DNA from: Bradyrhizobium japonicum USDA 6
GTDB taxonomy: Bacteria; Pseudomonadota; Alphaproteobacteria; Rhizobiales; Xanthobacteraceae
DNA length: 64,000 bases
Direction: 5' to 3'
Assembly: GCF_000284375.1 (NCBI RefSeq)
Contig: NC_017249.1
Location: forward strand, 7,867,001-7,931,000
Under the pieces are notes generated by a model. It made no database searches and was not told the origin of the DNA. It was given only the letters and a program-made list of their open reading frames with translations. Within the stretch, counting starts at the first letter, position 1, and each line of letters starts with the position of its first letter. Of this stretch, positions 51,311 to 57,345 are shown piece after piece. The position numbers were made by a program, and so were the translations under genes.

Positions 51311-52609
51311 ATGGTCGAACCGATCATGTACCTGGCGATCGGCTTCCTGCTCTCGATGCTGTGCGGGCTTGCCATCGTGCCGCTGGTGCATAACCGCGCG
51401 GTCCGCCTGACCACGCGCCGGCTCGAGGCCGCCACGCCCCTCTCGATGGCCGAGATCCAGGCCGACAAGGACCAGCTCCGCGCCGAATTCGCCATGTCGG
51501 CGCGGCGGCTCGAGATGAGCGTCGACCAGCTCAAGAACAAGACCACGAGCCAGCTCGCCGAGCTCGGCAAGAAGAGCGACGCCATCAACCGCATGAAGAT
51601 CGAGCTCGGCGAGAAGAACGCCACGATCTTCGCGCTGGAGGCGCGCGAGAAGGCGGTGAAGGAGCAGCTCCGCGCCACCGAAGAGGAATTCAACGCCAAG
51701 ACCGAGGCCCTGCGCACCGCCGAGCATGCGCTGACCGACAAGCAGGGCGAGCTCGCAAAAATCAATTCCGAGCTCTCCGACCGCTCGATGATGGCGGAGA
51801 GCCGTCAGGTCGAACTGGTCGTGGTGCGCGCGCAGATCGAGGAACTGAAGAATCGCGTCGGCGACGCCGAGAAGGAATTTGCCGCCACGCAGGCGCGGCT
51901 GACGCAGGAACGGACCGAATCCGAGACCGCCTCCCGCGAGCTCGGCGATGCGCGCGGCCGTGTCGAGAATCTGAGCCAGCGCGTCACCGAGCTCGATCGC
52001 CAGCTGATCGTGCAGGTCAAGGAGGCCGAGATGCTGTCGGGCCGTGTCGCCGATCTCGAAGGCCGCCTCGCCACGCAGGGCAAGCTGCTCGCCGAGCGCG
52101 ACTACGAGAACAACCAGCTCCGCCAGGCCAATGACGGCAATGATCGCATCATCAAGGAGCTGCGCGTCGAGATCGCGGGCTTAAGCGGCGGCAAGTCGTC
52201 GGCGGCGTTCGAATCGCTCCGCGCTGAAAAGACCGCGCTGGAGGAGCAGCTGCGCACCGCGCGCGACGAGCGCGCCAAGCTCCAGCGCGACATCAACGCG
52301 ATCCAGCAGCAGGCGGAGAGTTCCTGGGCGACCGAGCGCATGGAGAATGCGCTGCTGCGCGAACGCATCAACGACATCGCCGCCGAGGTCGCGAAGCTCG
52401 CGATGCAGCTCGAAGGCCCGAACTCGCCGATCGAGGCGCTGCTGGCGGCCGAGGCCGGCCAGCCGCCGAAACCGGCGCCGCGCCCGGCCAATGACGCCGC
52501 CGGCAATGGCGCGGCCGCAATCACCCTGCCCGAGGGCGGCGGAACGCTCGCCGAGCGCATCCGCGCGCTCCAGGCCCACGCCTCCCGCGCCCGCCAGCAG
52601 GGCGCATAA
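51311..52609 (+). CDS. Membrane-anchored coiled-coil protein of unknown function
   Basis: 432 residues. One N-terminal membrane helix ('MYLAIGFLLSMLCGLAIVPL') is followed by about 350 residues of near-continuous coiled coil rich in Glu, Ala, Arg and Leu, and an Ala/Pro-rich C-terminus. The layout recalls RmuC-like or filament-type proteins, but no nuclease domain is visible. Conserved analogues exist in Bradyrhizobiaceae from memory. A structural or envelope-linked role is possible. Start at 51311 fits the membrane helix, but no strong Shine-Dalgarno is evident. Confidence 0.75.
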   Translation: MVEPIMYLAIGFLLSMLCGLAIVPLVHNRAVRLTTRRLEAATPLSMAEIQADKDQLRAEFAMSARRLEMSVDQLKNKTTSQLAELGKKSDAINRMKIELGEKNATIFALEAREKAVKEQLRATEEEFNAKTEALRTAEHALTDKQGELAKINSELSDRSMMAESRQVELVVVRAQIEELKNRVGDAEKEFAATQARLTQERTESETASRELGDARGRVENLSQRVTELDRQLIVQVKEAEMLSGRVADLEGRLATQGKLLAERDYENNQLRQANDGNDRIIKELRVEIAGLSGGKSSAAFESLRAEKTALEEQLRTARDERAKLQRDINAIQQQAESSWATERMENALLRERINDIAAEVAKLAMQLEGPNSPIEALLAAEAGQPPKPAPRPANDAAGNGAAAITLPEGGGTLAERIRALQAHASRARQQGA

Positions 52610-52766: not shown

Positions 52767-52841
52767 GGGCGCATAGCTCAGCGGGAGAGCGTTCCCTTCA
52801 CACGGGAGAGGTCCAAGGTTCGATCCCTTGTGCGCCCACCA
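52767..52841 (+). tRNA. tRNA-Val (anticodon CAC)
   Basis: The cloverleaf folds fully. Acceptor GGGCGCA pairs with TGCGCCC, the D arm is GCTC-AGCGGGA-GAGC, the anticodon stem TTCCC/GGGAG has loop TTCACAC, and the T arm is CAAGG-TTCGATC-CCTTG, followed by ACCA with CCA encoded. It reads GTG codons. It borders lower-GC accessory DNA on its 3' side and is a plausible integration site. Confidence 0.96.
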
Positions 52842-53138: not shown

Positions 53139-54173
53139 ATGGACTGCGGAGGTCTAGGTGGTTACAATTATGGGTTGACTCGTCTGGGGGCAGACGGGCG
53201 TACGAACAAGGGGGTAGGCCGTCTGTCGACCATCACCGCGACTGATCTCACGTCCGCGCTGACAGGGAATCCGGAAGCACTCGACGTTCACCTCATGTTG
53301 GTGGAGCGCGACGTCCTCATCGAGGGTCATTCGGTCAAGATCCACTGTCATTGCCTCACAGTGGATGGAAACGGCCGCGTCCAGCCGCACCGGCTGGCGG
53401 AGTTCATGCGGAACGCCGTAGTCGACTATGCGATACCGCGCTCGAAGCTCGCTGCAGCGAAAGCGCGCGACGCCAAGTACAATAGCACCGAGGCGGTCGC
53501 CGAACTCGTCGAGCGCGCCAAGCGGTCGTTCACCGATTTGGCGAAGACCGGAGAGGGCGGCGAGATGCTGCTGTTCTTATTGGCCGAGCGCTTCCTCAAG
53601 CTGCCTCAGATTCTGTGCAAGATGGATCTCAAGACAGACACGCGCCTACACTACCATGGAGCCGATGGGGTGTACGCTGGCGTGATGCCGGAAGGCATCC
53701 CGAAGCTCTACTGGGGTGAATCCAAAATCTACAAGGACGCGGGAGCCGCGATCCGCGACTGCCTCGCCTCACTCGCTCCCTTCCTCATTGAACCAGAACA
53801 CGAGGAAACCGACAGGGAACGCGATCTGGTGCTCCTGAGCGACAAGGCCGACCTCAGTGATGCGACGCTCACCGACGCGCTGAAGAAGTATTTTGACAAG
53901 TCGTCGGTGATGTCCAAGCGGGTCCAATACTGCGGCGTGGCCCTGGTGGGCTTCGACGCGCCGTTCTATCCGAAAGATGACGTAAAGGCGATCGCGGAGG
54001 AGATCGTTGAGGCCTCACGCGCGGAACTGGCCGTTTGGAGCAAAAGGATCGGCGAGCGGCTCAAGTCGGAGAAGCTCGACCAGATGGAAATCGAGCTGTT
54101 TTGCATCCCGCTGCCGTCGGCCGACGGCTTCCGCGCCGCATTTCTCAGAGCGATGGGGATTAAGACGGAATGA
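53139..54173 (+). CDS. hamA: Hachiman antiphage protein HamA (DUF1837 nuclease)
   Basis: 344 residues if the ATG at 53139 is used; the first 25-30 look unconserved and a start nearer 53175 is possible. The DUF1837 core is clear: 'TGEGGEMLLFLLAERFLKLP', 'KMDLKTDTRLHYHGADGVYA' and 'KLYWGESKIYKDAG'. Glu142, Asp176, Glu194 and Lys196 form a PD-(D/E)xK-like nuclease site. HamA with the HamB helicase makes the two-gene Hachiman system, in which HamA degrades DNA when HamB senses damage or phage (established). The reading frame is intact, and its stop overlaps the hamB start (ATGA). The partner gene is broken. Confidence 0.85.
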   Translation: MDCGGLGGYNYGLTRLGADGRTNKGVGRLSTITATDLTSALTGNPEALDVHLMLVERDVLIEGHSVKIHCHCLTVDGNGRVQPHRLAEFMRNAVVDYAIPRSKLAAAKARDAKYNSTEAVAELVERAKRSFTDLAKTGEGGEMLLFLLAERFLKLPQILCKMDLKTDTRLHYHGADGVYAGVMPEGIPKLYWGESKIYKDAGAAIRDCLASLAPFLIEPEHEETDRERDLVLLSDKADLSDATLTDALKKYFDKSSVMSKRVQYCGVALVGFDAPFYPKDDVKAIAEEIVEASRAELAVWSKRIGERLKSEKLDQMEIELFCIPLPSADGFRAAFLRAMGIKTE

Positions 54174-56088
54174 GCCTAGTCGGTCTCCAGTCGTGGCTTC
54201 TTCAGGAAGGAATTCGCGACGATCTCGATGCGATCATTCGACTCACCGTGCGCACCGAACTTGACAACCTAGTGCCCGAACCCGCCGCCCCCTCTGCCGT
54301 GGCGATCGATTGGCCAAGGCTGCTGCTCGCCGGCAGCATATTGGCGCGGTCCGATCAACGGATCGACCAGGAGGCCGCGCTCCGGATCGCAACTGCGGCG
54401 ATCTCTCTGACGGACGATCAAGCACTCAAGGACGCGGGCGCTGTCCTGTTGGGCAAGCTCTCCAATTACCGGGCCATCACGCTAGCCAACGATCGCCACC
54501 TACTGACGGCCGGTCTCGACCGGACGGCTAGGTGTGGCGCTGCGCCTTGAATCCCAGCGGCGCGAGATGGACCGTTCCATCCTGGTGGAATCGAGCGGCG
54601 CTTGGCTGCAGGTGAACGATTTTCAGCAACGCTTCTGGCCAATGCGGGCGGAGGAAGTTGGCTCTCGGCGTCCGCCCCCACTGCCTCCGGGAAGACGTTT
54701 CTCGTCCTTCAGTGGTTGATCGACCAACTAAGCGCGGGTGACACCCGGGTCGCAGTCTACCTCGCCCCTACCCGCGTGTTAGTTTCGGAGATCGAGACCA
54801 CTCTCCAAGGTCTTCTCGGCAAGACCAAGCGCATCGAGGTGTCGTCCCTTCCCCTCCGTGACAAGTACGAAGCGGCGCGCGCTGGAGGCGCGCAAGTAAT
54901 TCTAGTCTCCACGCAGGAGCGGCTGCACCTTCTCGCCAACGTGCTCGGCGACGCGTTCTCAATTGACCTGCTTATCGTGGACGAGGCGCACAAAATCGAG
55001 GACAGCCAACGCGGCGTGATCTTGCAGGACGCCGTAGAGCGGGCTAGCCGTGCGAACTCGAAGCTGAAGGTCGTATTCATCAGCCCCGCGACACAGAACC
55101 CGGAGGCATTGCTAACGGACGCGCCCGACGGTGTGCAGACTGTCGCCGTCGACAGCGACGCTCCCACCGTTCTCCAGAACCTGATCGTCGCGAACCAAAC
55201 CCCACGCAAGCCGAAGCTCTGGAACCTGACCGTCCGACAGCAGGGTTCGACACTTCCAGTCGGAACGCTCCAGCTCGCAAGCACGCCAGCGGGACTTAGG
55301 AAGCGCCTCGCCTTCATCGCCGCAGCGGCGGGCCAGAGAGGCGGAACGCTCGTCTACACGAACGGCGCCGGAGAGTCGGAGGATGTCGCCGATCTGGTTA
55401 GCCAGCTCCTGCCTCAGCCTGGCTCAATCGATCCGGAGCTTGCACAGCTCGCCGACCTCGCCCGGAAGGGCGTACGCCCCAACTTCCGCCTTGCACCGCT
55501 CGTTGAACGCGGGGTCGCGTTCCACTTCGGCAATATGCCATCGACGCGGCATCGTGGCGCTTCGAGAGACTGGCCGCCGAAATGGACCCGAGCCGCGTGA
55601 ATGTGGTGAGCAGATAGGCGCCCGAGTCCTTGAGGTTGGCCGAGATGATCCGCGGGAACATCGAGTGGCACCGTACCACCGGTAGGACCTACAGCCTTCC
55701 GGTGCAGATCCGCAACACGATGGAGCTGGTCGAGCAAGTCGCGCGATTCAAGGCGCCGAAGTATCTGTCCGCCTACATGGATGTCCTGCACATGCATCTC
55801 CGCCAGATCAACCGTGAGGACCTGATTGATCACGGCTTGGACATCGGCACACAACTTGAGTTTGGTACTTCGTCGAGGACCCTCCTCTCACTCATGGAAC
55901 TCGGTCTCTCCCGCATGAGCGCGGTTGCCTTGTACGAGAAGACCGATCTCAGTAAGGAGGAATGCGTGGCGTGGGTCACCGAACGCGAAGGTCAGCTCGA
56001 AGCCATGGATTTCCCGGTCATCATCGTCCGCGAGCTACGCGAGCGGCTTCTGCCGCTCGACGACGTGGACAGCAATTCTACCGCTTGA
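54170..56088 (+). pseudogene. hamB: Hachiman helicase HamB, disrupted by frameshifts, deletion and internal inversion
   Basis: The N-terminal part reads in frame from 54170 to about 54525. A one-base gain there and a one-base loss near 54637 put the intervening conserved 'LRLESQRREMDRSILVESSG' and 'WLQVNDFQQRFW' in another frame and create a TGA at 54548. The helicase core resumes with Walker A 'SAPTASGKTFLVLQ', 'LLIVDEAHKIED' and 'VVFISPATQNPE', up to 'AFHFGNMPS' near 55545. The second RecA-like domain with motifs V and VI is missing. About 75 bases (55548-55625) are inverted: the minus strand reads 'GAYLLTTFTRLGSISAASLS', a HamB segment. The C-terminal part follows at 55630-56088 ('DTM/NTMELVEQVARF'-type region). 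It cannot make a working helicase. Confidence 0.82.
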
Positions 56089-56106: not shown

Positions 56107-56403
56107 ATGCCCGCGAAGCCGATCGACCTCGGCCCACTGCACTTCGCCAAAAGAGGTGACGCCGTTGCTTATTTGAATGACATGCTTCACCGGTACGACG
56201 TGGGCGATCGGGTTGGCGCCAATGACACAGTGATTCTACGAGCGGCACTGGAGCACCATCCCGATGCCGAGGCCAAGAAGGGATGCGGAATTACCCACTT
56301 TAACGTCCGAACTGCTGACTTCGGTACGAAATGCTTCTGGTTGAACCGTACTGACGGAACGACCGAAAAGTTTTCTCATAGGGCCTGTATCTACGGTACC
56401 TAG
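56107..56403 (+). CDS. DUF3223 domain protein next to the Hachiman locus
   Basis: 98 residues from ATG 56107, with GGAGG six bases upstream. 'HFAKRGDAVAYLNDMLHRYD', 'ALEHHPDAEAKKGCGITHF' and 'CFWLNRTDGTTEKFSHRACI' fit DUF3223, related to the plant DCL family, of unknown function in bacteria. It begins 18 bases after the hamB stop and could be co-transcribed. The frame is intact while its neighbour is decayed. It ends abruptly after the domain. Confidence 0.7.
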   Translation: MPAKPIDLGPLHFAKRGDAVAYLNDMLHRYDVGDRVGANDTVILRAALEHHPDAEAKKGCGITHFNVRTADFGTKCFWLNRTDGTTEKFSHRACIYGT

Positions 56404-56799: not shown

Positions 56800-57110
56800 G
56801 GCGTTGCCGCTGCTCGACGGCATGAAGGCGCCCGAGAAAATTGTCGAAACGCGCCGCGGGAGATACTCAAGCCAATTTCGCCTAAACCGGAGACACCGGC
56901 GCCAGATCCAGACGAAGACGATATTGAGGATGATCTCGACGAAATCGATGAGGCGTCGCGGCAGGATCCGAAGTTGCCGCACTTTATTCACAATTCACAC
57001 GGGGATGCAGATCCGCGGCCGCTCAAGGCATGGCTAATCAAACGGCTGATGCCAGCGGTGGGGCATGGCTTGCTGTCGGGTCAGTGGGGCGCCGGCAAAA
57101 CATGGTGCAC
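56800..57110 (+). pseudogene. Fragment of a phage/plasmid-type AAA (RepA-like) ATPase
   Basis: An open frame without a start codon encodes an acidic linker ('PDPDEDDIEDDLDEIDEASR') and then 'PLKAWLIKRLMPAVGHGLLS' followed by a Walker A 'GQWGAGKT', where homology stops. This resembles the beginning of AAA_25-type ATPases on mobile elements. The rest is missing, replaced by an inverted IS5-type transposase remnant. Confidence 0.5.
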
Positions 57111-57111
57111 C

Positions 57112-57345
57112 ATCTTGGTGCACGGTGAGCGAAGCAGATCGGGTTGGCGGGACGTTGGCCCATGCGCCGTTCTTCGTGGCGAGCTCCTTAATCCAGTCGG
57201 CGTCGTAGCCACGTCAGAAAGCTGCATCGATCCGCGCTTCAGACAAGATAGTCGCTTTCTGGCAAGCCGATTCTCGTGAGCCTCGTCGGGCGTCAGCGCC
57301 AGCCGGACCGGCAGGCCGTTGGCATCCACGAGTGCATGAATCTCA
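57112..57345 (-). pseudogene. IS5-family transposase fragment
   Basis: On the minus strand 'SEIHALVDANGLPVRLALTP' and 'EAHENRLARKRLSCLK' match IS5/IS1031-group DDE transposases. A frameshift follows: the expected 'GYDADWIKELATKNGAWANV' is in the next frame. Neither the N-terminal DDE part nor the C-terminus is present. Confidence 0.7.

Follow-up and report, generated by a model that had tools for sequence, protein, structure and literature searches.

An open hamA beside a wrecked hamB: a decayed type II Hachiman operon at the tRNA-Val end of a Bradyrhizobium symbiosis island

What becomes of a defence nuclease when its helicase partner has been destroyed? The question is raised by a locus of Bradyrhizobium japonicum USDA6 lying in a stretch of 64,000 nucleotides (contig NC_017249.1, positions 7,867,001 to 7,931,000 of the forward strand; hereafter the window, in whose numbering features are given unless genome positions are stated). 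Locus handles (L) and genome handles (G) are used where sequences have to be told apart. The ham locus forms an operon of type II Hachiman (HamA2-HamB2-HamC2) and is situated directly downstream of a tRNA-Val gene, at the end of symbiosis island A. The original prediction, a Hachiman locus in which hamA is open and hamB wrecked, is borne out by HamA and HamB2 profile matches and by the lesions in hamB. The same three families stand in the same order as in type II Hachiman [PADLOC; PMC8565338]; in contrast to that system, hamB is a pseudogene here and the system is hence incomplete, with HamA (DUF1837) present, HamC (DUF3223) adjacent, and full-length HamB absent. The locus is a decayed relative of type II Hachiman, known from its sequence, and ordinary in kind. 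What it adds is not a new kind of system but an unusually clear history and an unexpected feature of hamA across the family.

The first gene was assigned with profiles and a structural model. The open reading frame 53139-54173 (+ strand) matches PF08878 (E 8.2e-64) and PADLOC HamA2 (504 bits), so that the DUF1837/HamA assignment stands. By sequence, no PDB entry matched at E 0.01. The three best PDB matches of an AlphaFold model (built from 48 sequences; mean pLDDT 74.8, residues 135-147 below 50) were all Escherichia coli Hachiman HamA chains (Foldseek; 8zue_A, E 2.5e-6; 8vxy_A, E 2.8e-3; 8vx9_A, E 5.0e-3; rmsd 7-9 Å). The fold and the D...GExK residues (motif wording from PMC12799240) are held in common with E. 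coli HamAB (8vx9, 8vxy, 8zue), from which the locus differs in sequence (11-13% identity in structural alignments), in that the E. coli helicase is intact, and in that no HamC term occurs in the available text of PMC12278908. The active-site residues D148, E166, and K168 are present, and the expectation that every acidic and Lys residue had been kept was confirmed: of 86 columns invariant in 53 relatives, none is violated. The start first assumed, at 53139, had to be given up, being 28 codons too far upstream, because residue 30 is the first in the family match, the CTG at 53223 is homologous to the start codon of relatives, and the relative G112 has an in-frame stop 17 codons upstream of that CTG. 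The gene is thus placed at 53223..54173 (+ strand; residues numbered from the CTG), with a purine-rich, Shine-Dalgarno-like stretch read from the sequence at 53208..53214 (+), 8 nt 5' of the CTG.

The hamB pseudogene occupies 54170..56088 (+ strand), and its open pieces match the PADLOC profile HamB2 PDLC00200 (865 positions) at 1-118, 149-458, and 716-860. The 5' piece (54170..54550, +) is a 126-aa reading frame that matches positions 1-118, precedes the helicase core, and terminates after the first frameshift; the middle piece (54602..55600, +) covers 149-458, the first helicase domain, with homology in that frame running out near 55543; the 3' piece (55637..56088, +) covers 716-860 and carries a 9-bp in-frame deletion. 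Between the last two lies an inverted 86-bp scrap of the deleted part (55537..55622, - strand). Bases at about 55550-55613 had been considered as still coding for HamB, wrongly; they are inverted scrap. Most of the second helicase domain is thus absent, as had been proposed. Next to the pseudogene, hamC (DUF3223) is open at 56107..56403 (+; PF11523, E 6.4e-25; PADLOC HamC2, E 5.2e-45). A further fragment at 56974-57279 has a weak AAA_25 match (E 6.3e-5, 23.1 bits; family cut-off 27) and probably derives from a decayed mobile-element gene.

At this tRNA-Val site, B. manausense SZCCT0344 (L047) and G112 (L036) have alleles in which hamB is unbroken. Compared with L047, the window carries two single-base frameshifts, opposite in sign and about 118 bp from each other, between which the first frame meets a stop; about 0.78 kb replaced by 93 bp, 86 bp of which are the inverted scrap of the lost part; and additionally the 9-bp in-frame deletion. 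That hamB is in truth intact and its breaks are errors of sequencing or assembly could be argued from the two single-base frameshifts, which cancel out. A deletion containing an inverted scrap is, however, no base-calling error, and the explanation is untenable because five further genomes carry the same broken layout; we regard it as barely conceivable. A hamB deletion around position 3985 of L103, a distant relative with an open hamA, has its left end at residue 459 (window: 458); the near-identical edge may reflect chance or a weak spot.

The history of the wreck can be followed across genomes. The tRNA-Val gene (CAC; 52767..52841, + strand; ARAGORN) is the integration site of the island, and its last 45 bp (52797-52841, +) are the copy occurring at island boundaries, with pattern copies in 6/6 genomes. 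It corresponds to trnV-CAC at 7,919,767-7,919,841, and symbiosis island A of USDA6 is given as 7,920-8,614 kb [PMC3927601]. Set against symbiosis island A as described there for B. japonicum USDA6 and B. diazoefficiens USDA110, the ham locus is its tRNA-Val end, and going from the tRNA into the island, hamA is the first gene seen. The words 'Hachiman' and 'helicase' are absent from the available text of that paper, where the operon is not discussed under those names. HamA was matched in 24 of 265 Bradyrhizobium genomes, with full identity along the 344 residues of the long reading frame in 6, the window's own included; an intact HamB query found 20 of the 265 at E 1e-20. In those same six genomes hamB survives as the same two blocks, 715-858 and, interrupted by one stop, 1-459. 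For the five carriers besides the window (L031-L035), DNA from the tRNA onward is about 99.9% identical to the window and carries the same hamB lesions; hamA differs by 0, 1, 0, 0, and 0 bases, respectively, L035 has 9 differences over the whole 7.2 kb compared, L032 and L033 have in addition an 11-bp gap near 59 kb, and the sequence of L031 stops within the hamB remnant, so that hamC lies outside its comparison.

Core DNA 5' of the tRNA (51311-52609) is only 90.9-93.4% identical in L031-L034, that is, 7-9% different; L035 (genome G052) shares just the 45-bp tRNA end on that side and is not comparable there. Membership of the island is indicated by the jump in identity that four carriers show at the tRNA, together with the coordinates of PMC3927601. 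The distance from hamA to nodA is 163-176 kb in the four one-contig carriers, and nodA scores are alike in all six. The lesions are shared and identity steps up at the tRNA; therefore the operon was already dead when the island spread. By genome comparison, the island with its dead operon is now present in at least six species-level genomes. In B. huanghuaihaiense (L035/L046), the island is preceded by no more of tRNA-Val than its 45-bp 3' end, as if another element may separate the tRNA gene from this island end.

The state of the operon was tallied in 70 related loci, in which hamC was sought by tblastn. Open hamA, full-length hamB, and a hamC match were found together in 49 (matches partial in L083 and L086), and the first two only in 4, so that hamC accompanies 49 of 53; L096 is counted as full length though an insertion splits its hamB match. 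Open hamA with broken hamB occurs in 5 (L046, with the same wreck; L050; L057; L090; L103). Another 4 are cut by a contig end after an open hamA (L045, with the same wreck; L053; L092; L101), 1 is cut within hamA, and in 7 hamA is broken, partial, or distant. L109 and L110 are distant, at 35-37% identity. In Aurantiacibacter zhengii (L090:10944-12326), hamB lacks internal parts and is still one frame of 460 aa between open hamA and hamC; judged from that frame, its product is possibly a helicase-dead HamB. HamA matched no phage record at E 1e-5, and 32 plasmid records, 22 of these over at least 80% of the query.

Whether selection still holds hamA was assessed from substitutions. The six carriers are too alike to reveal constraint on the gene, and branches were counted with L047 as sister and G112 as outgroup. 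The window lineage has 2 synonymous, 3 nonsynonymous, and 1 unresolved change in hamA (3 and 1 on the L047 side). Two of the three nonsynonymous changes fall at conserved sites: residue 160 is Pro in island HamA (51 Leu and 2 Ile in 53 distinct relatives; L160P) and residue 196 is Thr (42 Ala and 11 Ser; A196T), with P160 as the first residue of the strand predicted by the AlphaFold model to bear E166 and K168. The ratio of 2:3 is indistinguishable from the 35:14 of intact relatives (synonymous:nonsynonymous; Fisher p 0.31). Surviving hamB codons have 5 synonymous and 8 nonsynonymous changes on the window side versus 6 and 3 on the L047 side (p 0.39), and hamA and the hamB pieces combined give p 0.15 against the intact sister branch. 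The counts suggest relaxed constraint on hamA and the hamB pieces, changes being few and no contrast significant.

What the lone nuclease could do has to be argued from E. coli, where DNA ends are sensed by HamB, which activates HamA and uses an N-terminal helical bundle for part of its contact with it; where only HamB is soluble alone and solubilises HamA; and where deletion of either protein abolishes defence [PMC12278908]. On the reading preferred here, a once-working type II Hachiman operon was cargo at the tRNA-Val end of the island, and in one island lineage several lesions destroyed its hamB. By the E. coli analogy, loss of the helicase would remove both the sensing of damaged DNA and the switching-on of HamA, and with them Hachiman defence. 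HamA remains readable but is probably made at a low level from its CTG start; it would be expected to be insoluble without HamB, although the E. coli protein is a distant relative whose insolubility may not carry over. It also carries a proline at a conserved position next to the active site, and HamC is taken to be a leftover of the same operon. HamA is held to be inert because, on the E. coli analogy, no activation is possible without the second helicase domain. We infer, with a probability of roughly 0.78, that the decayed operon travelled with the island and that HamA is most likely inert, having had too little time to decay. The proposal that the nuclease is now inactive or expendable thus appears the likelier branch of the original prediction. 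Against inertness it can be said that hamA and hamC are both open despite several hamB lesions, which could mean that they were retained; by a hand estimate with lesions falling evenly, both would be open by chance roughly one time in sixteen.

The other branch, a second life of HamA with the DUF3223 protein, did not survive: DUF3223 is HamC, the ordinary third gene of type II and the one that defines it [PMC8565338], and it was rejected as a novel partner. L078 of the loci examined is the S. witflariensis DSM 14551 operon (NZ_NISJ01000011.1), a type II system that gave defence against phage [PMC8565338]. There might be a new role of a different sort, with HamA held by the 126-aa N-terminal HamB piece or by HamC, for example as a regulated nuclease that needs no helicase. 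The contribution of the E. coli N-terminal bundle to HamA binding [PMC12278908] would fit this, as would the nature of the 126-aa frame, the part of HamB ahead of the helicase core, and the fact that the first part of hamB is still matched in all 5 loci where hamA is open but hamB broken. By a hand estimate, however, chance would retain that part in 5/5 in about half of cases, HamC is ordinary for type II, and L160P and A196T look like loosened constraint; such a role is accordingly considered very improbable.

A better candidate partner for HamA than the DUF3223 protein is a near-complete HamB elsewhere in USDA6. A second type II locus lies at 1.473-1.476 Mb (L040:5007-8174), about 2.8 Mb from the first along the shorter arc and on the margin of a candidate island of 1,473-1,503 kb with trnL-CAA [PMC3927601]; no tRNA was found in the 12 kb of this locus, and no hamC. 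Its hamA lacks roughly residues 55-150, with a changed frame, and its hamB (1.4737-1.4761 Mb) is open and shares 71% identity with intact HamB (858 residues) across residues 1-815, the last ~43 residues being gone. The two crippled loci might together make one system split in trans, island HamA (with HamC) working with the second HamB, which is open, near-complete, shows its helicase motifs by eye, and stands beside an internally deleted hamA of its own. The missing ~43 residues speak against this, as does the branch of the second hamB, on which 8 synonymous and 9 nonsynonymous changes versus 7:4 on the sister branch hint at relaxed constraint; cross-pairing would, moreover, have to work at 70% identity. 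A second HamB was matched in 0/5 other carriers at E 1e-20, so pairing in trans cannot explain the island hamA generally and is possible in USDA6 only, where we think it unlikely.

The unexpected feature of hamA is its start. At the codon homologous to 53223, 64 de-duplicated loci (L036, L047-L108) have CTG in 38, TTG in 12, ATG in 7, GTG in 2, and another codon in 5, so that 50/64 distinct loci use CTG or TTG. For 20 of the 38, the frame from the last in-frame stop up to the CTG contains no ATG, GTG, or TTG; this stop and the CTG are just one codon apart in L095 and L096, and in L067, L074, and L041 none of the three codons follows in the next 24 codons either. Leu is encoded there in 47 of 59 distinct loci (window lineage included), always by CTG (35) or TTG (12), where 17.7 would be expected from the leucine usage of each gene; a probability drawn from these counts overstates independence because the loci are related, 48 HamA proteins forming 20 clusters at 80% identity (15 of the 20 contain a CTG member, by reading). 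Seven other Leu columns in the first 60 have five or six of the six codons in use. Shine-Dalgarno matches of at least 4 bases within 16 nt upstream were found in 39/59, versus 45/295 control places inside genes. The synonymous share among changed codons (472 overlapping pairs of 48 loci) is 0.07 in the ten upstream codons, 0.43 in codons 2-10, and 0.66-0.68 in codons 11-100. The CTG is not universal: ATG takes its place in L097-L101, L103, and L108, and in several loci that do have the CTG an ATG, GTG, or TTG is also available upstream of it, as with the ATG at 53139 of the window.

The other genes of the operon start conventionally: among the 46 hamB genes alignable at the start, 43 begin with ATG and 3 with GTG (51 operons examined; a 4-base overlap with hamA in 30), and among the 36 alignable hamC genes, 35 begin with ATG and 1 with GTG. 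Among five plasmid records, RefSeq places the HamA start at the CTG in L145 and L146, and at the homologous TTG in L143, whereas for L144 and L147 it comes 8 and 30 codons later than the CTG, respectively. E. coli ribosomes initiate poorly at CUG [PMC11497404]. No description of a CTG start of hamA was found in the titles or abstract openings of the papers listed by full-text searches, and 'start codon' is absent from the available text of PMC12278908; a paper on CUG starts in which restriction enzymes are mentioned too [PMC12366791] is, from its available text, about something else. A tentative proposal, to which we give somewhat less than even odds, is that type II Hachiman leashes its nuclease at translation: only hamA would have a conserved weak start (CTG, else TTG), the overlapping hamB starting at ATG, so that HamA would not outrun the helicase that restrains it. 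The weak start would then protect the cell from excess nuclease, loss of hamB would be survivable, and a lone hamA could ride the island through six species.

For Bradyrhizobium, the locus is a case of an abortive-infection system that, although dead, has been carried between species by a symbiosis island, and it can be compared with intact alleles from the same site. For the family, it exposes a conserved CTG start on a defence nuclease, truncated by annotation in some records, as a testable point, and the two complementary broken Hachiman loci of one type strain offer a further one.
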